Shown here: positions 26,717 to 37,609 of the stretch, piece by piece
Layout: each line of letters starts with the position of its first letter
Numbering within the stretch: position 1 is the first letter of the stretch
Assembly: GCA_000153385.1 (NCBI GenBank)
Contig: CH672374.1
Coordinates: 880,958-944,957, forward strand
Source: Flavobacteria bacterium BBFL7
GTDB lineage: Bacteria; Bacteroidota; Bacteroidia; Flavobacteriales; Flavobacteriaceae
DNA length: 64,000 nucleotides
Reading direction: 5' to 3'
The notes under the pieces: model-generated
The model's input: the letters and a program-made list of their open reading frames with translations, nothing else
What the model was told of the DNA's origin: nothing
Databases searched by the model: none
Position numbers and translations under genes: made by a program

Positions 26717-27568
26717 TTAATGATTTAAATCGTGTAACACTAATAATGGTACCTTACTAAACATCCCTAATTCTTTCACCATAGGAGTAGAAAATATAGT
26801 ATCTAAAAAAGAATGTTTTCTATTAATAAAAGAAACCATATCACTGCCTCTACTCTCTACAAATCGTTTCACGCTACTGTTCACATCTGTTCCACCTATG
26901 TGATGTAAACTAAAAGATGCTCCTTCTAGACATTCCTCTAAAAACTGTTTATTTTCCTCTTGTTCCATAGACAGCTCTGGATGATCATTAACATGTAATA
27001 CACAAATATTAGCATCCTGTGACTGTGCTATTTCTACTAGATGTACTAGTTCTCTACGTTTGTAATGTGTCTTAAAACTGGTAGGAAAAACAATTTCTTT
27101 GATACGTATCAATCGAGCATCTAAAGGAATTCCTAGTATTGGAGAACTACGTAAGTTCTCCATCACATTTATTGTATTACTACCAAAAAGTTTATTCTCA
27201 TAATTACTAGCACCTTTGGTCCCCATTATGACTAATTCAATATCTTTCTTCTCAATAGCCATTTGAATAGCACTCAAAGGATCATCTTGCACTGATAAAA
27301 CATGGTATTCGTGTTTATCATTTAATCCTCTGAATTCCAACATTTCTTGAATTTTTTCAAGACCGCTAGCCGATTTGTTTTTCTCAGTTTCAAACGAAAG
27401 CATTTCTGCTTTATCCTTCATTAATTTCCCTCTACTATGCATTGTGGCATTATATGCATTAAGTAAGAAGAAACTACATTCTGTGTTCTGAAAAAGATCT
27501 GAGGCATATGTGATCGCATTCCAGGCATTTTTAGAAAAGTCAGTTGGAATTAAAATTTTCTTTTTCAT
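26717..27568 (-). CDS. Universal stress protein, tandem Usp domains (Usp1)
   Basis: A 283-residue protein made of two Usp folds. The first begins MKKKILIPTDFSKNAWNAI and carries a full nucleotide-binding pattern, MGTKGASNYENKLFGS (G-2x-G-9x-G-S). The second repeat lacks it. Tandem ATP-binding Usp proteins act in stress, starvation or low-oxygen survival in other bacteria. It has its own CRP/FNR-like promoter at 27592-27634, whose inverted repeat overlaps the stop codon of the upstream usp gene. Confidence 0.9.
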   Translation of the reverse strand: MKKKILIPTDFSKNAWNAITYASDLFQNTECSFFLLNAYNATMHSRGKLMKDKAEMLSFETEKNKSASGLEKIQEMLEFRGLNDKHEYHVLSVQDDPLSAIQMAIEKKDIELVIMGTKGASNYENKLFGSNTINVMENLRSSPILGIPLDARLIRIKEIVFPTSFKTHYKRRELVHLVEIAQSQDANICVLHVNDHPELSMEQEENKQFLEECLEGASFSLHHIGGTDVNSSVKRFVESRGSDMVSFINRKHSFLDTIFSTPMVKELGMFSKVPLLVLHDLNH

Positions 27569-27591
27569 AGCATTTCATTTAGTTTACACGA

Positions 27592-27634
27592 TAAATTTAA
27601 ATCTATTCATAAATCTTAACTATGATATTTATCA
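27592..27634 (-). promoter_or_regulatory. CRP/FNR-type promoter of usp1
   Basis: Plus-strand TGATATTTATCA (27623-27634), 23 nt, then TAAATTTA on the minus strand (27592-27599). It is one of six promoters in this region with identical spacing. Confidence 0.72.
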
Positions 27635-28480
27635 GCTACCTTCTGGAAAAATAAGTAATGGTAAGTCAGTATGAAAACTTAATTTCTCAACAGTTGATGT
27701 TTTAACTAGACCTTTTAAAAAACTGTATTTATGATACATTAAAGTCACTAAATCAATATGTTGTGTTTCGCAAAATTGCTTAAGATTACTCTCAATAGAA
27801 TCTTCACTTGAAATCCAATGAGTCACAAACTCAACATCATTTAAATGCGATTTCAAGTGACTAAACTGTGATTCAACATCGTTTTGAATATCTGATTGTT
27901 TATGGAAATGTACCAGCTGTAATTTTGAATTGTGTTCTTTGATTATCATTTTTAAAAAAGTAACATTCTGTAATTGATCATCTTTTTTAAAGTCCGTGGC
28001 ATATGCAATACTCTTAGGACTTAAATTATTAGAATCCTTTGGCACTAGGAAAAGTGGTATCGGGCTTATATTTTTAATTACATCTACCGCCTGACTGCCT
28101 ATAAAAACTTCTTTTAATCCTGTTGCTCCTTTAGTACCCATAACAACAAAATGTATATCTAAATTCTCAATTAAATCATTGATGATATCATTAAGTGGTA
28201 GTGCCGCATACATCAATTCTACATTCAATTGTTGTCCAGCACAATCTAATTTAATACGATGAGATTGTTCTTCTAATTTATTATGAACACGTGTTCTTAA
28301 CTGTGCAGTTATACCTTCATTAGCAACAGGATCCATTTTACTAATTGAGTCATTTAAAGTTGCCTCATATGAATGAACTAAATAAATATGGCTTTCCTCA
28401 TTAGGAAACAATTGTGTTGCATAAAATAATGCATTATATGCATTCTCAGAAAAGTCAGTAGGTACTATAATTGATGCCAT
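27632..28480 (-). CDS. Universal stress protein, tandem Usp domains (Usp2)
   Basis: A 282-residue double-Usp protein. The start is placed at ATG 28480 (MASIIVPTDFSENAYNAL), because this matches its paralogues and lies 18 bp from the promoter -7 box; a longer in-frame start at 28522 would run through the promoter. The ATP-binding pattern MGTKGATGLKEVFIGS in domain 1 is intact. It is close in sequence to the next gene (shared GLKEVFIGSQ), which suggests a recent duplication. Confidence 0.9.
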   Translation of the reverse strand: MASIIVPTDFSENAYNALFYATQLFPNEESHIYLVHSYEATLNDSISKMDPVANEGITAQLRTRVHNKLEEQSHRIKLDCAGQQLNVELMYAALPLNDIINDLIENLDIHFVVMGTKGATGLKEVFIGSQAVDVIKNISPIPLFLVPKDSNNLSPKSIAYATDFKKDDQLQNVTFLKMIIKEHNSKLQLVHFHKQSDIQNDVESQFSHLKSHLNDVEFVTHWISSEDSIESNLKQFCETQHIDLVTLMYHKYSFLKGLVKTSTVEKLSFHTDLPLLIFPEGS

Positions 28481-28498
28481 GATTATAAATTTAGAAGT

Positions 28499-28541
28499 TA
28501 AAACTAAAGCATGGGTAAGCAAGCACCTATGATAAAAATCA
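28499..28541 (-). promoter_or_regulatory. CRP/FNR-type promoter of usp2
   Basis: TGATAAAAATCA (28530-28541), 23 nt, then TAGTTTTA on the minus strand (28499-28506), ending 18 nt before the chosen ATG. Confidence 0.72.
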
Positions 28542-28544
28542 GTT

Positions 28545-29387
28545 CTATGCAGGTAATATTAAAAATGGTACACTCGAGCGGTGAACAACTCTCTTTACCA
28601 CCGGTTTAAATAATAGATTTTCAAAAAAGTTATGATGATTATGCACTAGAACGAGCAAATCAATACCATGTCTAGATTGAAAATCTTCCATTGCCTCTAA
28701 CACATCCATGCCTTTGGCTATTTGGGTAAGATGAGCGTCACGTTTAAAGAAGGCATCTAGCGCATTCATATTTTTAACTTGCTGTGGTGTTAGACTATTG
28801 CCTTCATAAGCATTTAAAAATATTAATCTTGAAATATTTGAATTGCAAATCTCTTCAAGCAATTCAATACCAGCATGTTCTTCATTTGTTTTATAGTCTG
28901 TAGTAAATAAAATCTCCTTAGGTTGTTTATAACTATAATTTTGAGGAACACCTATTACAGGAACTTTGGCATTCTTAATAACGTGCATTGTTTGTGAGCC
29001 TATAAAAACCTCTTTAAGACCAGACGCTCCATTAGTTCCCATAACAATGAGATCTATTTCATAATCTTTAACCAATTCATTCACCTCTATACTTAACATA
29101 TTGAAGGTAGAAATCCCTTGGAATGTATGACGTGCATTGTTATATTTTAATTGTACCTCATCAATAACCTTTTTAACATGTTCCTTAGATTTCTTTTTAA
29201 ATAATTCTCCTATTTCTAGGTCTAAACCTGGATCATTACCATAGGTTGTAGATGTATATAGAGCTACTGGCTCATAAGTATTGAGAACATAGAAATGACA
29301 ATCATCGTTTTTAAACAGTTGTACAGCATATTCTATAGCGTTGACAGAAGCAATAGAAAAATCTGTCGGCAAAAGTATTTTTTTCAT
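28545..29387 (-). CDS. Universal stress protein, tandem Usp domains (Usp3)
   Basis: A 280-residue double-Usp protein starting MKKILLPTDFSIASVNAI, with an intact ATP motif MGTNGASGLKEVFIGS. It is 11 bp downstream of usp4 and has no promoter element of its own, so it is probably the second gene of a usp4-usp3 operon. Confidence 0.9.
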   Translation of the reverse strand: MKKILLPTDFSIASVNAIEYAVQLFKNDDCHFYVLNTYEPVALYTSTTYGNDPGLDLEIGELFKKKSKEHVKKVIDEVQLKYNNARHTFQGISTFNMLSIEVNELVKDYEIDLIVMGTNGASGLKEVFIGSQTMHVIKNAKVPVIGVPQNYSYKQPKEILFTTDYKTNEEHAGIELLEEICNSNISRLIFLNAYEGNSLTPQQVKNMNALDAFFKRDAHLTQIAKGMDVLEAMEDFQSRHGIDLLVLVHNHHNFFENLLFKPVVKRVVHRSSVPFLILPA

Positions 29388-29398
29388 AGCATGTGATA

Positions 29399-30196
29399 TT
29401 AACGTTCAATATTTTGAAGAATTAAAAATGGAATTTTTAGATGCAATCCTAATGCGTCAATCGTCGGCGTTTTCAAATAAGACTCTAGAAAAGAGTGCTT
29501 AGAATTAGCTAACACTAGTAAATCAATCGCATGTTTATTTATAAAATTATTAATTACAGTCGTGCCTTCTCCTTTATCGTGACGGGTGTATTGTATTTCG
29601 CTTTCGCGAAAGCGTGATTCCCATAGTCCTTTAACTTCAACCTGTCGTCTTGATAATTGATCAAACTGTGCTATATGTAATAAATGAACTAAAGAACGAT
29701 GCTGTAGCGCAAGCATACTTATTAAGTCTAGTTCCCTTTCTTTAAAAGGAACCTGCAATCCAGATGGGAATAGAATACGCTCAGGACTCTTAAATTCTAA
29801 TTCCAGAGGTATGGCTAGAACGGGACAACTCACATTTTTTATAACTTGTAATGTATTGCTACCAAAACTTCTTCTGCGATCTGCTGTTTTACCTTGTGTC
29901 CCCATCACAATTAGGTCTGCATTCTCCTGATCTACTAATTGATTGAGCTGCGTTATAAATATTCCAGGCTTTACACAAGTCTCAAAACTATGATGTGGAT
30001 TATAAGTAAGGTATTCTACACGTTCTAATAAATGATCTAGTTGGTCATCACATGATTGTTGTCCTTCATGAAGTGACTGATCAGGACTATGGAGAATGAT
30101 AAACCTAGCTTCTTCTACATCAAAATATTGAATAGCACATTGTAAAGCGTTGAAGGCATTCTCTGAAAAATCTGTTGGAACGATAATGACTCTCAT
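29399..30196 (-). CDS. Universal stress protein, tandem Usp domains (Usp4)
   Basis: A 265-residue double-Usp protein starting MRVIIVPTDFSENAFNAL, with an intact motif MGTQGKTADRRRSFGS. An exact CGCTTTCGCGAAAGCG palindrome (29599-29614) lies in the second domain, read in a frame giving RFRES. It is the first gene of the usp4-usp3 unit, driven by the promoter at 30219-30261. Confidence 0.9.
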   Translation of the reverse strand: MRVIIVPTDFSENAFNALQCAIQYFDVEEARFIILHSPDQSLHEGQQSCDDQLDHLLERVEYLTYNPHHSFETCVKPGIFITQLNQLVDQENADLIVMGTQGKTADRRRSFGSNTLQVIKNVSCPVLAIPLELEFKSPERILFPSGLQVPFKERELDLISMLALQHRSLVHLLHIAQFDQLSRRQVEVKGLWESRFRESEIQYTRHDKGEGTTVINNFINKHAIDLLVLANSKHSFLESYLKTPTIDALGLHLKIPFLILQNIER

Positions 30197-30218
30197 AATA
30201 AAATAGTATTGATTATCA

Positions 30219-30261
30219 TAAATCTATGACCTTCAACACATATAAACTATGACATTAATCA
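30219..30261 (-). promoter_or_regulatory. CRP/FNR-type promoter of usp4-usp3
   Basis: TGACATTAATCA (30250-30261), 23 nt, then TAGATTTA on the minus strand (30219-30226). Confidence 0.7.
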
Positions 30262-30269
30262 GCTCAACA

Positions 30270-31076
30270 TTACTCGTGTATGATTAAAAAAGGTAGTTGC
30301 TTACGGTAAGTTAGTGAATTGTCATGCGATGAAGTGAATAGGATATTTTCTAAAAAATTGATGTTCTTTGCAAAAAGAATCACTAATTCCACACGATGTA
30401 TACGTACAAATAACTGCAGCGCATTATCCATCGTTTTATCAATAACAGAGTGAAAACTGCATGAAAAACGATCTAGTGCATTTTTAAGAAAAGATTTGTT
30501 TTCCATCTGGCTATGCGATAATACAGCACTACTAGTCTGTAATTGTAATATATTAAGATGCGTTTGAGAACGATTCATAAACGCCGTTAACGTATTAGTT
30601 GCTTTTGAACGGTGAGTAAAATTAAAGTCTGATAATAAGACAACCTGTTCTAAAGGTTTACACTTAAATTTAAGAGGAACTAGTAGAATAGGGCATTTAA
30701 TACGTGTAATTATAGCTTTAATATGAGTAGCATCAATTTGTCCATCGCAAGTGGATGGGAAAACGTCGGTACACACGATTAAATCAATATCATTTAATTG
30801 AACAGCTTGTTTAACTTGTGTGATAAAACGACCATCTAATGAGAGCTCGACTATTTTTTGATGTGCTGCAATAAGCTGCTCTAGCGCTTTTAATCTAGTC
30901 TTTAAAGAACTTTTACTTGATTCGAGTAAGTCAGGATGTAATTTACTAGCAGTGGGAAAAGTTTTTACCGGTAATAGATAAAAGCACATACCAGGATCAC
31001 GATACATAGATATAGCACACTGAGCAGCGTTCCATGATGGATCTGTATTATCTACTGGTATAAGAATATGCTTCAT
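30270..31076 (-). CDS. Divergent universal stress protein lacking the nucleotide-binding motif (Usp5)
   Basis: A 268-residue protein. It begins MKHILIPVDNTDPSWNAA, and the position of the usual GxxG-9x-GS loop reads VCTDVFPSTCDGQIDATH, so the ATP-binding glycines are gone. Overall length and beta/alpha order match the neighbouring double-Usp proteins (KCPILLVPL ends domain 1). It may be a non-nucleotide-binding, heteromerising or signalling Usp. It has the same promoter type as its neighbours. Confidence 0.82.
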   Translation of the reverse strand: MKHILIPVDNTDPSWNAAQCAISMYRDPGMCFYLLPVKTFPTASKLHPDLLESSKSSLKTRLKALEQLIAAHQKIVELSLDGRFITQVKQAVQLNDIDLIVCTDVFPSTCDGQIDATHIKAIITRIKCPILLVPLKFKCKPLEQVVLLSDFNFTHRSKATNTLTAFMNRSQTHLNILQLQTSSAVLSHSQMENKSFLKNALDRFSCSFHSVIDKTMDNALQLFVRIHRVELVILFAKNINFLENILFTSSHDNSLTYRKQLPFLIIHE

Positions 31077-31096
31077 TGCAAACTACTTTGAGCTCA

Positions 31097-31139
31097 CAAA
31101 AATATCGGCATTGTAATTATCAAATAATGATAAAAGTCA
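31097..31139 (-). promoter_or_regulatory. CRP/FNR-type promoter of usp5
   Basis: TGATAAAAGTCA (31128-31139), 23 nt, then TATTTTTG on the minus strand (31097-31104), an exact -7 match. The right half-site GTCA differs from ATCA at one base. Confidence 0.7.
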
Positions 31140-31151
31140 GTTTTAGAAAAA

Positions 31152-32207
31152 TTATTCTACTTTTTCTAAACCGCTCAAATTAATGATTTTAATACTGCGC
31201 CCTTCTATCTCTATAAGGCCATCTTTTTTAAACCCAGATAAGGTTCTAATTAAGCTTTCAGTTGCGATACCAGCCACACTGGCTAAATCATTACGTGTTA
31301 TGCTTATATCTTCTTGTGCATCTTTATTATAAACACTAGCAAACTGAAGTATGGTTTGAGCCGTTTTTTTACGTACTGAGCTATAAGCCATTTGTAATAA
31401 TTGTGATTTTACATGGGCCACATTATGAGATAATAGTTGCAATAATTCCATTGAGAGGTTATTGTTGTTATCTAATATATCCTTTAGTACAGATTTAGAA
31501 ACACCTACTAATTTTACATCCTCAAGCGCCTCTGCTGACTCCTCATAGGCAACGTTATCTAAAATTGAAGTAAATCCTAAGAACTCATCCTCCTTAAATA
31601 AGGATGTAATGAGCTCCTTTCCACTTTTATCAATTTGATATGTTTTAACGACGCCTCTAGTGATTAAATAAATTCTGAAAGACCGTGAACCTTCTTGATA
31701 AATCACTTCTCCTTTTTTAAAACTTAGCTCTTCACCATTGTCATCAAAGAAGTTTTTTAACTCATTTAGGTTGCGCAATTGATCTTCATCACTAGAAGAT
31801 TGTGGTATGTTATTCAATAAGGTTTTAAAAACCCCTGCTTTGGCTAATCGAGTTTCGATAGCTTTTAAAAGTTCTTCTTCCTCAAACGGTTTAGTTAAAT
31901 AATCATCTGCGCCCAGATCCATACCTTTACGTACCTCTTTATGATCTGTACGAGCAGATAAAAAGATAAAAGGAATTTGGTTTGTACTTGTATCCAACGA
32001 TAATGCTTCTAAAACGCCATAACCATCTACCTCTGGCATCATGATATCACATACCACAACATCAGGTTTATTCTTTTTGGCTAGCTCGATTCCTGCACGA
32101 CCATTAGGTGCGGTGATGACCTCATAATCTGATAGTTCAAGCAACTCTGCCGTGTTTTCTCTTAATGCAGTATCATCTTCTATGATTAAGACTTTTTTCA
32201 TTACCAT
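31152..32207 (-). CDS. Response regulator fused to CRP/FNR-type DNA-binding module
   Basis: A 351-residue protein. A receiver domain (1-122; IIEDDTALRENTA, phospho-acceptor VVVCDIMMP at Asp54, switch Lys in YLTKPF) is joined to a cNMP-binding-like beta-roll (about 150-260; FKKGEVIYQEGSRSFRIYLITRGVV) and a C-terminal Crp-type winged helix (about 275-345). The recognition helix TESLIRTLSGF keeps the Glu317 and Arg321 pair that in FNR/CRP reads the TGA core. No Cys cluster for Fe-S is present. It is encoded 1 bp after its kinase. It is the natural candidate to bind the six TGAY-N4-RTCA sites around it. Confidence 0.92.
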   Translation of the reverse strand: MVMKKVLIIEDDTALRENTAELLELSDYEVITAPNGRAGIELAKKNKPDVVVCDIMMPEVDGYGVLEALSLDTSTNQIPFIFLSARTDHKEVRKGMDLGADDYLTKPFEEEELLKAIETRLAKAGVFKTLLNNIPQSSSDEDQLRNLNELKNFFDDNGEELSFKKGEVIYQEGSRSFRIYLITRGVVKTYQIDKSGKELITSLFKEDEFLGFTSILDNVAYEESAEALEDVKLVGVSKSVLKDILDNNNNLSMELLQLLSHNVAHVKSQLLQMAYSSVRKKTAQTILQFASVYNKDAQEDISITRNDLASVAGIATESLIRTLSGFKKDGLIEIEGRSIKIINLSGLEKVE

Positions 32208-32208
32208 T

Positions 32209-33435
32209 TTATTTACTTGTAGGAATACTTATAATAAATGTAGAACCTTCATTTTCTTTACTCTGAAAGACAATTGAACTACCTAGATTTTTCAAATGAT
32301 TTTGAACAATGTTAAGACCTATTCCTGTACCAGGATTAAGCAATACATTTTCTGCTCTGAAATATCGATCAAAAACAAAACGCTGTTCATGTTCTGGAAT
32401 ACCTATTCCTTGATCTATAATGGATATCTCTATATCATCTTCCTTTCCAATTATTCTTATATCAACCGTCGTTCCTTCTCCAGAATATTTAACGGCATTA
32501 TGTATCAGGTTACTCAAAGATAGTTCTAGAATCTTCTCATCAAACTCTAAAGTAAAATCATCAGCATTGCGAGGATAATTGATTGTTTGACCATCTTTAA
32601 GGTGCACATTTGCATCATAGATCACTTCATTAAGTACTTTACTCAATGGGAATGAGGTAATTTTATAATTCGTCTTACCGGTATCTAATCTCTCAATAGA
32701 TAAAAAGTCATCGATAATCGTATTAAGATACTTCACTTTACTCTTAATGGTGTTAAGGTGTTTAACCCTTTTTTCTTGATGTTCCTCTTTAGTATACTTT
32801 GCCGCTAGTGTAGCAGATGTTAAAATACCACTTATAGGTGTTTTAAACTCATGAGATACTAATGATAAAAATTTAGTCTTCAACTCATTAAGCTCCTTTT
32901 CTTTTTGCAGGGCTTCATTGGCACTTCTTTCTGCCTCTTTTCTTAGGGCGACCTCTTCTTGTAAGGACTTAACCGCTTTATTTAAAGAGTCAGTTCGTTC
33001 TTCAATTTTTTCTTCTAGATGGTAATTTAGTTCCTCTATATGTTGCTCTTGTGCTTTACGCACAGTTATATCTGTCACAAGTGCCATTACGTAATGATGA
33101 TCGTGCAATGAAAAAGGATTCAATCCAGCTTCTACAGGAAATTGAGAGCCATCCTTGCGTACTCCATAAAGCACACGACCTTTTCCCATTTCTCTCTTCT
33201 GACTATGTTTCATAAAGCCATTGAAATGAGAATGATGCTCTTTATGATAAGAAGATGGAATTAATGCATGTAAGTGTTGCCCTTCTAGCTCCTTAGGTTT
33301 ATAACCGAATATTGCTCTGGCCGATGCATTAGTAGCGACAATAAATTGTTCTGAATTAACCACAACAATTCCTTCTGATGCGCCCTCAAATAAAATACGA
33401 AATGCTTCTTCTACACTATCTTCAAAAAAATTCAT
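32209..33435 (-). CDS. PAS-domain sensor histidine kinase, FixL-like PAS
   Basis: A 408-residue cytosolic kinase without membrane helices. The PAS domain (about 10-125) is followed by a coiled coil (130-185), HisKA (SLVSHEFKTP, His195) and HATPase ([29 protein letters not shown]). The PAS segment from IPSSYHKEHHSHF to GKGRVLYGVRKDG aligns without gaps to the FixL heme pocket: His67 falls on the FixL proximal heme His and Arg87 on the distal O2-sensing Arg. That pattern also occurs in PAS domains not shown to bind heme, so oxygen sensing is a hypothesis. It forms an operon with the REC-CRP gene. Confidence 0.9.
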   Translation of the reverse strand: MNFFEDSVEEAFRILFEGASEGIVVVNSEQFIVATNASARAIFGYKPKELEGQHLHALIPSSYHKEHHSHFNGFMKHSQKREMGKGRVLYGVRKDGSQFPVEAGLNPFSLHDHHYVMALVTDITVRKAQEQHIEELNYHLEEKIEERTDSLNKAVKSLQEEVALRKEAERSANEALQKEKELNELKTKFLSLVSHEFKTPISGILTSATLAAKYTKEEHQEKRVKHLNTIKSKVKYLNTIIDDFLSIERLDTGKTNYKITSFPLSKVLNEVIYDANVHLKDGQTINYPRNADDFTLEFDEKILELSLSNLIHNAVKYSGEGTTVDIRIIGKEDDIEISIIDQGIGIPEHEQRFVFDRYFRAENVLLNPGTGIGLNIVQNHLKNLGSSIVFQSKENEGSTFIISIPTSK

Positions 33436-33548
33436 ATCTCAAAAATACAATTAATGTACTGTTATTTGATATCTCATTAATCATTTAGATTAACTATAAA
33501 ATGTAAAGAATACTGCATGATGCAATTAATATATAAACGTATTGGTCA

Positions 33549-33591
33549 TGATAATAATCATAGTTCCCTTTTACACCAGTATTTAAATTTG
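33549..33591 (+). promoter_or_regulatory. CRP/FNR-type promoter of the 33608 gene
   Basis: TGATAATAATCA (33549-33560), 23 nt, then TAAATTTG (33584-33591), an exact -7 box. This is the only member on the plus strand, and it drives the gene divergent to the kinase. Confidence 0.72.
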
Positions 33592-33607
33592 GTTAAAACT
33601 ACAGATT

Positions 33608-34012
33608 ATGATTCCAGATATAAAAACTACACCACTATTTTATCATCATCTAGGAAAACTGTTCTATGCGGTAGCATTTAGTGATAAAAAAATAGCTCCA
33701 GAAGAATTTTTAAAACTACAAGAGTACATTGAAAAGTTCTGGGTGCAGTATGATAGTCTAACTGATATTTTTGAAAGTGATGCCGCGCATCTTATAGAAG
33801 TCGTTTTTGAAGGCGCTCAATTTTTTAAAGAAAGTCCAGATGATATGTTTCAATCATTTATCTCCTATAAACGCAAACATGAAAACCTTTTTAATAGTCA
33901 AGTTAGGCTACTTATACTGGAAACAGCAAGAGCTATCGCGCACTCTTATGCACAGATTAATAAGTCTGAGTTGATAATGCTGAGTACATTGGAAATAGAA
34001 TTCAATAAATGA
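33608..34012 (+). CDS. Small helical protein, possibly TerB-like, in the Usp/CRP regulon
   Basis: A 134-residue all-alpha protein. The segment GKLFYAVAFSDKKIAPEEFLKLQEYI has the look of a TerB-type helix-acidic loop-helix (A-x-SDxxIxxEE), but the match is by eye only. It has no signal peptide or membrane segment. It is transcribed divergently from the sensor kinase operon, with the same TGAT-N4-ATCA promoter as the usp genes, so it is probably a member of that response. Confidence 0.7.
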   Translation: MIPDIKTTPLFYHHLGKLFYAVAFSDKKIAPEEFLKLQEYIEKFWVQYDSLTDIFESDAAHLIEVVFEGAQFFKESPDDMFQSFISYKRKHENLFNSQVRLLILETARAIAHSYAQINKSELIMLSTLEIEFNK

Positions 34013-34068
34013 CATCTAAAAATTGTGACTCTATAAAGTATTAGTTCATCCCATATAATTAAATTTAA

Positions 34069-34536
34069 ATGATAAATTCAAACACAGAACAACTTACCGC
34101 GTTATGGAAAGAATCTCGCACTAGATTAGAGAATCAACTTAGTTCTATAAGCGCATTTGATTTAAGAAAAAAACTAGCTCCTTCTCCTAATAGTTTAGGT
34201 TTTTTATTGCGCCATATTGTTGAAGTTGAGCTACTTTTTGCAAAAAATGTTTTTGGTGCAAAAGACACAAAAATAATTGCAAAAACCATCATTGCTCAAC
34301 ATGACACAGGTGAATGGACTGATCTAGAAAAATTAATGATGATGCTTGATAACTCAAGGGATATATTAATGGATATTATTCAAAAACAAGAGGTTAGTGA
34401 TTGGGATGTAGAAATAACGACCAAAGAATTTGGCATCAAGACTAAAGCACAAGCTCTAGGCCGTATCATCTCACACACAGCCTATCATGCAGGACAGATA
34501 GGTATTATTCTTAAATATGGAACCGTATTTAATTAA
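34069..34536 (+). CDS. DinB-family protein
   Basis: A 155-residue four-helix-bundle protein. The conserved His of RHIVEVELLFAKN and the C-terminal SHTAYHAGQIGIILKYG form the putative metal triad of the DinB/YfiT superfamily. Members include thiol-dependent S-transferases, and the substrate here is unknown. It follows the 33608 gene by 56 bp with no clear promoter. Confidence 0.85.
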   Translation: MINSNTEQLTALWKESRTRLENQLSSISAFDLRKKLAPSPNSLGFLLRHIVEVELLFAKNVFGAKDTKIIAKTIIAQHDTGEWTDLEKLMMMLDNSRDILMDIIQKQEVSDWDVEITTKEFGIKTKAQALGRIISHTAYHAGQIGIILKYGTVFN

Positions 34537-34593
34537 ATGATGAATATTGCAAAATCCTACCATTATTAGCTCATATTAATACATATACTCAAC

Positions 34594-35238
34594 ATGAATT
34601 CCATCAACACTTTTATAGACCATACACAACTTAAAGCCACGTCCACAATAGACGATATTGCCGTATTATGTAAAGAAGCTATAGAGCACCGTTTTTATGC
34701 CGTATGCGTTAATGGCTGTTATACCGCTTTCGCGAAAGCGGAATTGAAAAACACCTCAATAAAAATAGCAACCGTTGTCGGGTTTCCTTTAGGCGCTGTC
34801 AGTACTCAAACTAAAGTTTTTGAAACTAAAGAAGCTATAGCGCACGGTGCTGATGAAATCGACATGGTGCTTCAAATAGGAGCTTTAATAAATAATGATC
34901 TTGAAACAGTGAAAAAAGATATTCTTGCGGTGCGAGAAGCTTCAAAAGGAAAAGTCCTTAAAGTCATTTTTGAGAACTGTTACCTCAATGATAGTCAAAT
35001 TAAAAATGCCTGTGACATATGCCTAGAGGCAAATGTAGATTTTATTAAAACATCAACTGGTTTTGGCACTAGTGGCGCTACCCTTGAAAACATTCGATTA
35101 ATGAAAGAAACAGTAAGAAATCAAATTAAAATTAAAGCTTCTGGAGGCATTAGAGATAAAGAAACGGCTCTAAAATATATAGCGCTAGGTGTGGATAGAA
35201 TAGGAACTTCATCTGGTATTAAAATAGTAGAAGCATAA
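34594..35238 (+). CDS. deoC: Deoxyribose-phosphate aldolase
   Basis: A 214-residue class I aldolase: N-terminal FIDHTQLKATSTIDDI, VVGFPLGAV, HGADEIDMVL, the Schiff-base Lys region VDFIKTSTGFG and KASGGIRDKETAL. It cleaves deoxyribose-5-phosphate to acetaldehyde and glyceraldehyde-3-phosphate. It is directly followed (18 bp) by deoD, forming a nucleoside-salvage pair. An exact palindrome (34725-34740) encodes AFAKA in the surface helix after the CVNGCYT strand. Confidence 0.96.
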   Translation: MNSINTFIDHTQLKATSTIDDIAVLCKEAIEHRFYAVCVNGCYTAFAKAELKNTSIKIATVVGFPLGAVSTQTKVFETKEAIAHGADEIDMVLQIGALINNDLETVKKDILAVREASKGKVLKVIFENCYLNDSQIKNACDICLEANVDFIKTSTGFGTSGATLENIRLMKETVRNQIKIKASGGIRDKETALKYIALGVDRIGTSSGIKIVEA

Positions 35239-35256
35239 TTAAATAAGACCCATATT

Positions 35257-35958
35257 ATGAGTACACATATAGAAGCCAAAAAAGGAGAAATTGCGGACAC
35301 AGTTCTACTTCCTGGAGATCCTATGCGAGCAAAATGGATAGCTGAAACCTTTCTGGATAACGCAATTTGTTATAATGATGTACGAGGCATGTTGGGCTAT
35401 ACGGGAAGCTATAAAGGTAAGCCTGTATCTGTACAAGGAACCGGTATGGGAATACCGTCTGCACTTATCTACTGTCATGAATTAATTAATGATTATGGAG
35501 TAAAGAATTTGATACGTGTAGGATCTGCTGGCTCTTATCAAAAGGATGTAGCGATAAGAGATATTGTGATTGCAATGGCGGCCAGTACGACATCTGGAAT
35601 TAATAATTCAAGATTTAAGAATGCCGACTACTCGCCTACTGCAAATTTTGATTTATTTCTTAAAGCATGCCTTTATGCCAAAGATAAAAATATACCTATA
35701 AAAGCTGGGAATATCCTATCTGCAGATGAGTTCTATGAAGACGATTTTGAGAACTATAAACAATGGGCAGACTATGGTGTATTATGTGTAGAAATGGAAA
35801 CTGCTGGACTATATACTATCGCAGCAAAACACAATGTAAAGGCACTTTCCATACTTACGATATCAGATTCACTAGTTACTGGAGAACACACCACGTCTGA
35901 AGAAAGAGAAACAACATTTCAAAAAATGATTGAGATAGCACTAGCCACGTTAGAGTGA
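35257..35958 (+). CDS. deoD: Purine-nucleoside phosphorylase
   Basis: A 233-residue hexameric-type PNP with [23 protein letters not shown], the GTGMGIPS phosphate loop, [11 protein letters not shown], and the catalytic EMETAG...ILTISDS segment with the Asp. It splits purine (deoxy)nucleosides with phosphate; after phosphopentomutase the deoxyribose-5-phosphate feeds deoC. It is convergent with the TSUP gene, with a 1-bp gap. Confidence 0.96.
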
Positions 35959-35959
35959 T

Positions 35960-36697
35960 TTACATTTTTATGTAATCAGAAAAAACACTGGCGATACCTA
36001 TAATCAATATTAATACGAGTACTAAAGTTCTAAATTGTTCTTGAGAAAAATAAGCTAGTATTCGCTTGCCGATCCATGTACCTAAAATAGCAACTATTAA
36101 TAATAGTCCAACTATATAGAGATGATCATAGTGCATGTAACCATTGTAGTAATAAATAACAGCTCTACTAGCATCTACACCAAAATCAATAGCTGCAGAT
36201 GTCGCAATAAAGGTAGCTTTATCCATTTTAAAAGCAGCCATAGTAATACCTCTTATCGCACCACCAGTGCCTAATAACCCAGCACTTAGACCAGATAAAA
36301 CTCCACCTGTAATAGCATTTTTATTGCTGTCTTTAACCACTAAATTCTTAAAAATTAAAAACATAAGACTAAGTACGATTAGGAATACACCTAATATAAG
36401 TCCCAACATACTAGGATTAATATATTTACTTAAAAAGGCGCCGATAGAAACAAATATAATTGCTGGTATACCTAGATAGAACAACAGCCTTTTATCCAAA
36501 CCTTTTCTGAAGAAGGCGATCTTAGTCACATTACTGGATAAATGAAATAATGCTGTAATTCCTAGTACAGATTGAAAGTCAAAATAGAAATTTGCAACTG
36601 GCACAAAAAATACTGAAGAACCAAAACCACCAACGGTTCCTAAAACTTCTGCCAGTAAAGCTAGTATTAAAAAGACAGGTAGGTATCTACTAAGCAT
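35960..36697 (-). CDS. TSUP-family (TauE/SafE) membrane permease
   Basis: A 245-residue protein with about eight hydrophobic helices and the TSUP repeats GGFGSSVFFVPVANFYFDF and SGLSAGLLGTGGAIRG. These permeases move sulfite, sulfonates or other small anions; the substrate here is unknown. It begins at the base next to the usp6 stop and so probably shares the usp6 promoter. This brings a permease into the Usp regulon. Confidence 0.88.
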   Translation of the reverse strand: MLSRYLPVFLILALLAEVLGTVGGFGSSVFFVPVANFYFDFQSVLGITALFHLSSNVTKIAFFRKGLDKRLLFYLGIPAIIFVSIGAFLSKYINPSMLGLILGVFLIVLSLMFLIFKNLVVKDSNKNAITGGVLSGLSAGLLGTGGAIRGITMAAFKMDKATFIATSAAIDFGVDASRAVIYYYNGYMHYDHLYIVGLLLIVAILGTWIGKRILAYFSQEQFRTLVLVLILIIGIASVFSDYIKM

Positions 36698-37546
36698 CTA
36701 GGAATTACAATCTCTTAATACTAGAAGCGGTAAAGTAGCTGCATTCACTATCTCAGAAATATGTGATTCAGATATCATTCGTTCTAGAAAAGATTGAGAC
36801 TTTACAGATATTGCTTGTAATTGATAATTTCTAGAGCTCAGAGATTTTTTAATAATCTTTAATGGTTCTTGATCTTTATGGAGTTCATAAATCACTGGAC
36901 TAGGCATACAAAAGTTGATAAAGGATTCTCGTTCTTCTCTATAATTTATGGGCTCTAATTGAAATCCATGATTAAAACGTATAACATTAATCGTAGAAGC
37001 AAACTTGGTAACTATTTCCAAAAAAAGTTCCTTTCCGCAAACCTTAAAAACATCATCATAATCTAATACATATTGTACGGCTGTAGGTTTATGAAATTGA
37101 TAGGCTTCTGGAATAGTAAGTATTGGACAATCAGTGTTTCTGATAACTCTTAAAGTATGTGAGCTAAATATATATTCAATGATACCATTTTTACCATCGG
37201 TACCACATATGATAAGATCAATTTGATACTTTTTTACCGCATCATTTACGGCACTGGTAAAAACATCGTAGTCTACCATAGTTTGAAAACTAAATTTTTC
37301 ACCTTTAGACCTTACAACTAATGCTTCTTTAACTTTTTGTAAGTCACTTTTATTATCATTTAATAAAGCACTTGCAATGTCGTCTTTAGGGTTTGCAACC
37401 ATCAAATCATCCATGGTGTACTCCCAAAACTTTTGCACGCTCAAAAGATGAAAATCACATGATTGCCCAGTAAAAAGCTGAAGAGCATAATCAATAGCAT
37501 TTTCAGATTTACTTGTAAAGTCTGTCAGTAATAGAATATTTTTCAT
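36698..37546 (-). CDS. Universal stress protein, tandem Usp domains (Usp6)
   Basis: A 282-residue double-Usp protein starting MKNILLLTDFTSKSENAI. The nucleotide loop CGTDGKNGIIEYIFSSH keeps GxxG but has Ser in place of the last Gly, so ATP binding may be weak. It lies 3.3 kb from the main usp block yet carries the same promoter type at 37567-37609. It is the first gene of a usp6-TSUP unit. Confidence 0.88.
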   Translation of the reverse strand: MKNILLLTDFTSKSENAIDYALQLFTGQSCDFHLLSVQKFWEYTMDDLMVANPKDDIASALLNDNKSDLQKVKEALVVRSKGEKFSFQTMVDYDVFTSAVNDAVKKYQIDLIICGTDGKNGIIEYIFSSHTLRVIRNTDCPILTIPEAYQFHKPTAVQYVLDYDDVFKVCGKELFLEIVTKFASTINVIRFNHGFQLEPINYREERESFINFCMPSPVIYELHKDQEPLKIIKKSLSSRNYQLQAISVKSQSFLERMISESHISEIVNAATLPLLVLRDCNS

Positions 37547-37566
37547 GATAATATCTTTTATCTAAC

Positions 37567-37609
37567 CAAATATAAATGTTAGATCAAGAGAAAACTATGA
37601 TATAAATCA
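37567..37609 (-). promoter_or_regulatory. CRP/FNR-type promoter of usp6-TSUP
   Basis: TGATATAAATCA (37598-37609), 23 nt, then TATATTTG on the minus strand (37567-37574), an exact -7 match. Confidence 0.74.

Follow-up and report, generated by a model that had tools for sequence, protein, structure and literature searches.

A predicted two-component counterpart of the FNR/FixK low-oxygen switch in Flavobacteriaceae

In Alphaproteobacteria, the FixL-FixJ-FixK and hFixL-FxkR-FixKf systems combine a FixL-like PAS kinase, a response regulator, and a final regulator of the CRP/FNR type that lacks the Fe-S cysteines and uses FNR-type sites. The cbb3 oxidase and hemN are targets in FixL-FixJ-FixK systems, and these low-oxygen genes are also standard targets of FNR. 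In Pseudomonas aeruginosa, ANR also controls Usp genes. In mycobacteria, DosRS/DosT puts many Usp genes under haem-based two-component control at low oxygen; DosR is a regulator of the LuxR/NarL type, and the haem is in GAF domains. For the Caulobacterales, it was proposed that FixK replaced FnrN on pre-existing FnrN sites (accessible portion of PMC4999443).

Here we describe a locus from a 64,000-nucleotide stretch of DNA (“the window”) of Flavobacteria bacterium BBFL7. It encodes a response regulator with a CRP-type output domain (REC-cNMP-HTH_Crp, or REC-CRP), a PAS-HisKA-HATPase kinase, six Usp proteins, and a TSUP (TauE/SafE) permease whose gene is with usp6 (Table 1). A preliminary description had assigned all of these identities, and Pfam bore them out. 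We put the probability at roughly two in three (0.68) that this locus encodes a low-oxygen switch of the FNR/FixK kind in two-component form, whose regulator would read FNR sites and would replace FNR in genomes that lack it. We found no paper on the REC-CRP regulator in the open-access literature (subscription papers were outside our scope), and the main text of PMC4558063, which surveys the domain architectures of two-component proteins, does not mention CRP or cyclic nucleotides. A CRP/FNR homologue from Flavobacteriales was compared with MalR in the accessible text of PMC8510549.

The promoter element and its targets in this genome

The preliminary description listed six promoters in which the dyad TGAY-N4-RTCA is followed, after exactly 23 nt, by TAnnTTTR. 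All six are present exactly, with five on the (-) strand and one on the (+) strand. Dinucleotide shuffles of the window give 0.01 expected matches to the full element, versus 6 found. For the bare dyad, 18 were found and 5.3 were expected; the remaining 12 dyads do not have the spaced -7 box. In Flavobacterium psychrophilum, TAnnTTTG is the consensus of the sigma-A -7 box at mapped start sites (accessible text of PMC9723704).

Table 1. Genes and promoter elements of the locus (window positions)
Feature	Position	Strand	Remark	Basis
usp1	26717..27568	(-)	Usp gene	Pfam Usp 1.4e-17
Element upstream of usp1	27592-27634	(-)	TGATAAATATCA-N23-TAAATTTA	pattern scan
usp2	27632..28480	(-)	Usp gene; ATG at 28480, downstream of its own element	Pfam Usp 2.4e-20
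Element upstream of usp2	28499-28541	(-)	TGATTTTTATCA-N23-TAGTTTTA	pattern scan
usp3	28545..29387	(-)	Usp gene; second gene after the 30219-30261 element	Pfam Usp 3.4e-28
usp4	29399..30196	(-)	Usp gene	Pfam Usp 4.2e-23
Element upstream of usp4-usp3	30219-30261	(-)	TGATTAATGTCA-N23-TAGATTTA	pattern scan
usp5	30270..31076	(-)	Usp gene	Pfam Usp 7.7e-9
Element upstream of usp5	31097-31139	(-)	TGACTTTTATCA-N23-TATTTTTG; directly behind the regulator gene	pattern scan, related loci
REC-CRP	31152..32207	(-)	Response regulator, REC-cNMP-HTH_Crp	Pfam, alignment
Kinase	32209..33435	(-)	PAS-HisKA-HATPase	Pfam, PDB match, alignment
Element upstream of the 33608 gene	33549-33591	(+)	TGATAATAATCA-N23-TAAATTTG	pattern scan
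33608 gene	33608..34012	(+)	Small protein encoded divergently from the kinase; a conserved member of the locus	related loci, model
TSUP/TauE-SafE permease	35960..36697	(-)	Operon with usp6	Pfam TauE 3.4e-33
usp6	36698..37546	(-)	Usp gene	Pfam Usp 8.4e-20
Element upstream of usp6-TSUP	37567-37609	(-)	TGATTTATATCA-N23-TATATTTG	pattern scan

We also considered related loci from the best 80 of 362 relatives. (Relatives were retrieved with the fused protein, so all 80 have the receiver-CRP fusion by selection.) Among 1,110 strand-oriented dyads from these 80 loci, TAnnTTTG starts exactly 23 nt from the dyad 208 times and 24 nt from it 22 times, and it is found at most 14 times at each other distance from 0 to 59 nt. 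None of 136 reversed control dyads has the box at 23 nt. Together, the shuffles, the reversed-pattern controls, and the spacing histogram rule out a chance origin of the elements. The shared 23-nt spacing also supports the earlier suggestion of class II elements of the CRP/FNR type, with fixed spacing, in predicted promoters. As had been proposed as a check, we asked if the element is kept upstream of related usp genes: in the best 80 of 362 relatives, it precedes 199 of 333, versus 1 of 333 for the control pattern.

The arrangement of the locus is conserved as well. Among the best 80 of 362 relatives, the kinase gene adjoins the regulator gene in 79 of 80 loci, and both are on the same strand in all 79 loci where the kinase was found. 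In 75 of 77 loci, an element comes directly after the regulator gene. The 33608-type gene is divergent in 69 of 74 loci, and an element accompanies it in 67 of 74. The 33608 protein has no match in Pfam or NCBIfam at E ≤ 0.001. Its predicted model is all helical, and the top match from Foldseek is weak (2h5n, E = 0.48, TM about 0.5); it is perhaps TerB-like.

Across the 3.10-Mb genome, there are 10 matches to the element and none to the reversed control pattern. The four elements outside the window are upstream of hemN, of the cbb3-oxidase operon, of another usp gene, and of a small-protein gene that is divergent from cydA. (We rejected cydA itself as a target: the element at C2:1182730 faces the small-protein gene, which encodes 122 amino acids with a CDGKC motif.) Of the proposed Usp regulon, the enrichment in Usp genes stands, but the regulon is not specific to them, as its members also include hemN and the cbb3 operon, among others. 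A Usp-only regulon is ruled against by the mixed targets in this genome and in related genomes. The ten sites are a predicted FNR/FixK-type low-oxygen regulon that is enriched in Usp genes.

The regulator and the kinase

REC-CRP has the features of a two-component response regulator: the receiver's D54 and K106 are kept in 81 of 81 aligned rows (best 80 of 362 relatives), and the adjacent kinase has a phospho-accepting histidine. Its output domain is HTH_Crp_2 (PF13545). The recognition stretch IATESLIR is kept in the 81 rows, with one exception each at T and S, and the Glu/Arg pair of the recognition helix, which the preliminary description had pointed out, is E317 and R321 in 81 of 81 rows (best 80 of 362 relatives). 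The CRP-type HTH, the Glu/Arg helix, and the TGA-N6-TCA site mark REC-CRP as a putative regulator of the FNR/FixK DNA-binding type.

The genome encodes a second regulator of this DNA-binding type, an FNR-like protein (C1:236049-236738) beside cbb3-oxidase genes. The recognition helices of the two proteins share ATES-IR--S-FKK. We aligned this FNR with proteins from 20 genomes that have an orthologue. It has four cysteines, as do all 21 of the aligned FNRs (itself included), which rules out that it is degenerate. REC-CRP has S, D, L, and V at these four columns. The cAMP pocket of CRP includes an Arg-Ser pair (R82-S83); at this place, judged by eye and unaligned to CRP, REC-CRP has YEESAEAL, and the arginine seems to be missing.

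For the kinase's PAS domain, the top matches in the PDB are FixL (1.6e-14) and DosP. We aligned 77 kinases from among the best 80 of 362 relatives, leaving out three with other gaps. H67, at the place of FixL's haem ligand, and the phospho-accepting H195 are each found in 77 of 77 rows, and R87 is found in 74 of 77. Given the roles of the FixL residues, we take H67 and R87 to be the haem-ligand histidine and the distal arginine, so the PAS domain would have both of these residues of FixL. Where FixL has a hydrophobic distal residue, it has a polar one (E, Q, or K). By eye, we saw no membrane segment in the kinase. Both of the long orthologues that we checked with Pfam have a second PAS domain. 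A model of the whole kinase has a pLDDT of 74.8 and a pTM of 0.42; its fold matches are mostly to the catalytic half and say little about the PAS domain.

We propose that the FixL-like kinase senses low oxygen, probably via haem, and would phosphorylate D54 of REC-CRP. The output half would be a CRP protein of the FNR/FixK type without the iron-sulfur cysteines. As judged from comparative genomics, it would bind cTGAY-N4-RTCAt, centred at about -41 of sigma-A promoters and 23 nt from TAnnTTTG, and would activate the Usp genes, the 33608-type gene, hemN, the cbb3-oxidase operon, and others.

Which regulator reads the element

We surveyed 149 Flavobacteriaceae genomes from 148 genera. We required E < 1e-75 for REC-CRP and E < 1e-36 for FNR; these cut-offs were chosen after seeing a gap in the E-values, and thirteen genomes have FNR E-values between 1e-48 and 1e-28. 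The REC-CRP-positive class takes in four genomes (G001, G025, G119, and G146) whose closest copy reaches just 41-44% identity. Overall, there were 1,151 matches to the element and 21 to the control pattern. Genomes with both regulators average 13.7 exact elements (n = 36), those with only REC-CRP average 8.9 (n = 30), those with only FNR average 6.5 (n = 55), and those with neither average 1.2 (n = 28). The element is absent from 15 of the genomes with neither regulator, and from none of those with just one. Element counts are higher with REC-CRP only than with neither regulator (P = 6e-9, ignoring kinship, as do all of our cross-genome statistics). Co-occurrence of the element with REC-cNMP-HTH fusions, which the preliminary description had suggested scanning for, was seen. 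Its inference that REC-CRP activates the regulon gains, as far as reading of the element goes, from the 30 genomes that have REC-CRP but no FNR orthologue and keep the element, but FNR-only genomes have this element too, which therefore does not belong to the two-component system alone. Usp matches have a median of 4.1 per Mb in REC-CRP genomes versus 1.8 in FNR-only genomes (P = 5e-14, ignoring kinship).

Some genomes do not fit these classes well. Four genomes with neither regulator have 3 to 9 elements, and we kept them in that class: G048 (9 elements, 82% complete), G147 (7, 73%), G138 (5, 99%), and G051 (3, 88%). Because G138 is nearly complete, a third reader of the element is possible. 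In the other sampled genome from the window's genus, neither regulator passes these cut-offs; this genome has a single element and 2 Usp matches, and HemN gives no match at E ≤ 1e-60. For G101, searching with FNR yields one match (E = 9.8e-23), which is the strength given by REC-CRPs in other genomes; the 9 elements of G101 precede targets that include four usp genes, hemN, and a cytochrome c.

We queried hemN in all 30 REC-CRP-only genomes, in 16 of 55 FNR-only genomes, and in 16 of 28 genomes with neither regulator, and found it in 23, 13, and 2 of these, respectively. In 20 of the 23 REC-CRP-only genomes with hemN, a strict element is upstream of it. Site positions were listed for four of the 30 REC-CRP-only genomes and for eight of the 55 FNR-only genomes; we read the targets in all four of the former and in five of the latter (G033, G058, and G072 were left out), taking all sites except in G082 (6 of 13); 1 of the 78 sites has no ORF. 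A ribosome hibernation factor is among the targets in 2 of the 4 REC-CRP-only genomes (one of the two was checked with Pfam). We also counted usp promoters in 4 REC-CRP-only and 5 FNR-only genomes, with up to 30 loci each and with one of the own usp genes dropped as it had no upstream DNA. The element precedes 12 of 29 usp genes in the former and 6 of 24 in the latter (P = 0.25, Fisher test), so usp genes with the element are not clearly fewer in FNR-only genomes.

We considered C before TGA as a clean fingerprint to separate REC-CRP sites from FNR sites, and it held only partly. It is more frequent in REC-CRP-only genomes, at 100 of 266 sites versus 65 of 358. On the HemN tree, the base could be compared in three close pairs with two sites: it differs as predicted in one pair and is shared in the other two, so ancestry may account for the difference.

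REC-CRP would thus read the same element as the family's iron-sulfur FNR, and would have taken over the element in genomes without FNR. Where both occur, sites would be shared, perhaps in this genome too, whose FNR could read all ten sites. A reading with somewhat less than an even chance is that FNR and REC-CRP occupy common sites and that each promoter integrates the two, with different signals (intracellular oxygen versus the kinase's signal); this overlaps our preferred explanation, of which it is the form that applies where a genome has both regulators. The nearly identical recognition helices fit it, and element numbers peak where both regulators occur, but these higher numbers may merely reflect larger genomes and regulons. 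FnrN and FixK coexist in some alphaproteobacteria, according to the accessible portion of PMC4999443.

It is rather unlikely that the kinase responds to a signal different from oxygen (redox state, a metabolite, or starvation) and that the regulon is a general programme for energy stress or dormancy, as first suggested. The Usp genes and the hibernation factor would suit such a programme, the second PAS domain of some orthologues and a distal pocket unlike FixL's leave room for another signal, and haem in the kinase is a prediction, but the PAS domain is nearest to FixL and DosP. Because hemN, the cbb3 operon, and others are in the regulon, low oxygen is a better guess than general dormancy; the Usp enrichment stands. 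In F. psychrophilum, cbb3 and enzymes of haem synthesis are induced when oxygen is limiting (accessible text of PMC9723704).

That all ten are ordinary promoters of the iron-sulfur FNR, with other targets for the two-component system, is improbable: this would suit the intact FNR with its nearly identical helix, the elements in 55 of 55 FNR-only genomes (and on some of their usp genes), and the standard targets hemN and cbb3, but not the elements in the 30 genomes without an FNR orthologue, the one directly behind the REC-CRP gene, or the doubling of Usp matches per Mb with REC-CRP.

Comparison with known systems

More broadly, and tentatively, Flavobacteriaceae may have a one-protein FixJ-FixK that, with a FixL-like haem kinase, takes over FNR sites, with later, repeated loss of FNR in genera that retain the fused regulator, unchanged promoters, and a tie to a Usp-rich dormancy module. 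This would be a testable case of exchange of a global regulator with the promoters kept, with one-component iron-sulfur sensing or two-component sensing, by genus, at the same element. The rule of dyad, 23 nt, and TAnnTTTG gives a way to list candidate low-oxygen promoters across a large family in which control by oxygen has been little studied, and connects both the Usp clusters and the conserved small protein of the 33608 type with the low-oxygen response.

DosR is of the LuxR/NarL type, and REC-CRP's HTH_Crp_2 output sets it apart. NmpRSTU of Myxococcus xanthus is a haem-dependent kinase pathway whose oxygen-utilisation regulon includes cbb3 and hemN, and usp genes are often named, in the accessible text of PMC11841059; it differs in having an NtrC-like regulator, a protoglobin sensor, and four proteins (PMC11841059). 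The one-component regulators FNR, FnrL, and ANR resemble REC-CRP in recognition helix, element, class II position, and the targets hemN and cbb3, but REC-CRP lacks all four cysteines and has a receiver with D54 and K106. The present system would work in the manner of the FixL-FixJ-FixK systems, but with FixJ and FixK merged in a single protein. In the window, the receiver and the CRP output form a single chain instead of a separate NarL-type FixJ that transcribes fixK, so there is no FixJ-to-fixK transcription step. Also unlike those systems, this one is from Flavobacteriaceae, its haem is predicted, and its core targets include Usp and 33608-type genes.

The element and its genes in the window

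A pattern scan of the window recovered all six elements exactly, with the spacing and strands that the preliminary description claimed. Each element is a TGAY-N4-RTCA dyad, then exactly 23 nt, and then a TAnnTTTR -7 box. In the window (34.7% GC), 6 were observed versus 0.01 expected, and the whole 3.10-Mb genome has 10, versus 0 for the reversed pattern, our control. Pfam agreed with the gene content as described: six Usp, a TSUP permease, the REC-cNMP-HTH_Crp regulator (REC-CRP), and the PAS-HisKA-HATPase kinase. So the observation is confirmed. The product of the small gene at 33608 (window's copy) had no match in Pfam or NCBIfam. The nearest REC-CRP relatives among the matches listed are from Nonlabens ulvanivorans, also of the Flavobacteriaceae (90%).

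Features of the window and of related loci
Feature	Location	Strand
Window, contig C2 of its own genome (G000)	G000:C2:880958-944957	
REC-CRP	31152..32207	-
Kinase	32209..33435	-
33608 gene, small protein	33608..34012	+
Small membrane-type protein with C-(D/N)-GKC motif behind element	L010:1128-1496	-
usp with own element, CRP-family gene, TauE/SafE permease, metallo-beta-lactamase/rhodanese fusion	L030:2470-6920	

We then considered the loci around the best 80 of 362 REC-CRP relatives. Across 1,110 dyads in these loci, the -7 box starts exactly 23 nt from the dyad in 208 cases, at 24 nt in 22 cases, and at any other distance in at most 14 cases; no control dyad had a -7 box at 23 nt. Adding the 6 nt half-dyad, the 23 nt, and the position of the -7 box would place the dyad's centre near -41, the class II place. 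In F. psychrophilum, TAnnTTTG is the consensus of the sigma-A box (PMC9723704).

In 79 of these 80 loci, the kinase and REC-CRP are adjacent on one strand (the gap is -60 to 100 nt in 76 and just beyond in three); the search of the remaining locus found no match to the kinase. Behind the REC-CRP gene, 75 of 77 loci have an element no more than 300 nt away, and 75 of 77 have a usp that starts no more than 400 nt away. In 69 of 74 loci, a gene of the 33608 type runs divergently from the kinase, and in 67 of 74 it has its own element. The strict element is indeed conserved before related usp genes at these loci (199 of 333, versus 1 of 333 for the control), and many usp genes without their own element probably sit inside operons.

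The 33608-type family (23 aligned sequences; identity to the window's copy, 35-68%) is fixed beside the kinase. Its best structural hint, a weak match, is 2h5n (PG1108 of Porphyromonas).

REC-CRP or FNR as the reader of the element

FNR, instead of REC-CRP, might read the genome's own elements, which was out of sight for the preliminary description. The genome has four HTH_Crp_2 matches, three of them above the cut-off, and one of these proteins is FNR-like, with its gene adjoining ccoI. It has a C-x2-C motif and two further cysteines; these four are invariant in 21/21 FNRs aligned, and REC-CRP has 0/4 of them. The FNR-like protein is present and the recognition helices are nearly alike (ATESLIRTLSGFKK in REC-CRP and ATESCIRLLSDFKK in FNR), so FNR is a serious rival.

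We sorted a single draw of 149 Flavobacteriaceae genomes, from 148 genera, by which regulator was present. Elements per genome were 13.7 with both regulators (n=36), 8.9 with REC-CRP only (n=30), 6.5 with FNR only (n=55), and 1.2 with neither (n=28; zero in 15 and 3 to 9 in four). In total there were 1,151 elements versus 21 matches to the control. Elements per Mb differed between REC-CRP-only genomes and those with neither (p = 6e-9), or just the eleven of those with at least 2.5 Mb (p = 2e-6). The element is associated with REC-CRP, as proposed, but FNR-only genomes have it too. Median Usp matches per Mb were 4.1 with REC-CRP versus 1.8 with FNR only (p = 5e-14). Genome-wide, the contrast for usp elements is weaker than at the loci: 12 of 29 usp genes have one in four REC-CRP-only genomes versus 6 of 24 in five FNR-only genomes (p = 0.25).

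The orthologous promoter of hemN carries the strict element in 20/23 REC-CRP-only genomes, 9/13 FNR-only genomes, and 0/2 with neither. On a HemN tree of 44 sequences, which may deviate from the species tree, the REC-CRP-only label needs 8 changes, at least 4 of them forced by well-supported branches; the REC-CRP-only and FNR-only states thus probably switched several times. The draw's sole other genome of the window's genus has neither regulator by our cut-offs, one element, and two Usp matches; a search of it for HemN found no match. Two or more copies of REC-CRP occur in G007, G031, G037, G061, G110, G111, G121, G133, and other genomes, and one copy type in these is just 41-44% identical to the window's.

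The base before TGA is C at 100/266 sites in REC-CRP-only genomes, 65/358 in FNR-only genomes (p = 8e-8), and 121/493 in genomes with both. At hemN, the counts are 15/20 for REC-CRP only versus 2/9 for FNR only (p = 0.014), or 2/14 for the latter with five more promoters added (p = 0.001). In the window's genome, 4/7 TAnnTTTG sites have C (p = 0.02 versus the FNR-only rate). Because close pairs on the HemN tree switch inconsistently, this would be only a hint of a REC-CRP fingerprint.

Targets and the kinase as a putative sensor

The genome has four sites outside the window. They lie before hemN, before ccoS in the cbb3-oxidase operon, before one more usp (the seventh), and before a gene whose 122-aa product contains a CDGKC motif; this last gene has cydA divergent and a TonB-dependent receptor gene (Plug domain) next downstream. 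Among nine Usp ORFs, six have the element directly upstream, one is second in an operon, and two lack it. In four REC-CRP-only relatives (38 sites), hemN (4/4) and ccoS (3/4) are among the targets. Besides nadA, usp, and the 33608-type gene, the others include genes for a cytochrome c, for MlaE, and for a ribosome hibernation factor. (Pfam was run on one example each for ccoS, nadA, cytochrome c, MlaE, and S30AE; comparison with the own genome's genes identified hemN, usp, and the 33608 type.) Among 40 sites from five FNR-only relatives, hemN and ccoS recur as targets in 5/5; the others include a PFL-like enzyme, nirK-like and norC-like proteins (both assigned by eye; Pfam gave no match for the nirK-like piece), and one usp as first gene. 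The element's regulon is of the FNR type. The main claim of the preliminary description is supported, and its scope, Usp genes, is corrected to include hemN, ccoS, and others. What the genomes demonstrate is an association; we infer that REC-CRP would bind the element upon phosphorylation.

Small membrane-type proteins with the C-(D/N)-GKC motif recur behind the element, in L010 and in loci of G143, G130, and G107; the two searched had no Pfam family. The L030 region is a second Usp plus sulfur-type locus. The element is also upstream of an S30AE-like ribosome hibernation factor gene in three genomes (L134 and L144, REC-CRP only; L165, FNR only; Pfam was run on the L134 protein), and a link of this promoter type to ribosome dormancy is possible.

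The PAS domain is at the very start of the kinase, and inspection by eye showed no membrane segment. In the PDB, this PAS domain best matches rhizobial FixL (1.6e-14) and DosP. H67 is invariant in 77/77 aligned kinases from the best 80 of 362 loci, and R87 is present in 74 of these. H67 falls at the haem-ligand position of FixL; unlike FixL, the kinase has a polar residue in the distal place. Given the similarity to FixL and DosP and the invariant H67, haem in the kinase is plausible, at slightly under even odds, and a role in oxygen sensing is putative. Some kinase orthologues (L063, L086, and other loci) are about 500 aa, or about 100 residues longer, and both of those checked have a second PAS before HisKA.

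Comparison with known systems

In F. psychrophilum, the cbb3 oxidase and haem-synthesis enzymes are up under oxygen limitation; the study's main text leaves FNR unmentioned (PMC9723704). In titles and abstract openings of the open-access literature, we found no description of a receiver-FNR fusion in such a role. For Caulobacterales, FixK was proposed as a substitute for FnrN at existing sites (PMC4999443). In Myxococcus, a haem-dependent two-component pathway governs cbb3 and hemN through an unrelated regulator (PMC11841059).
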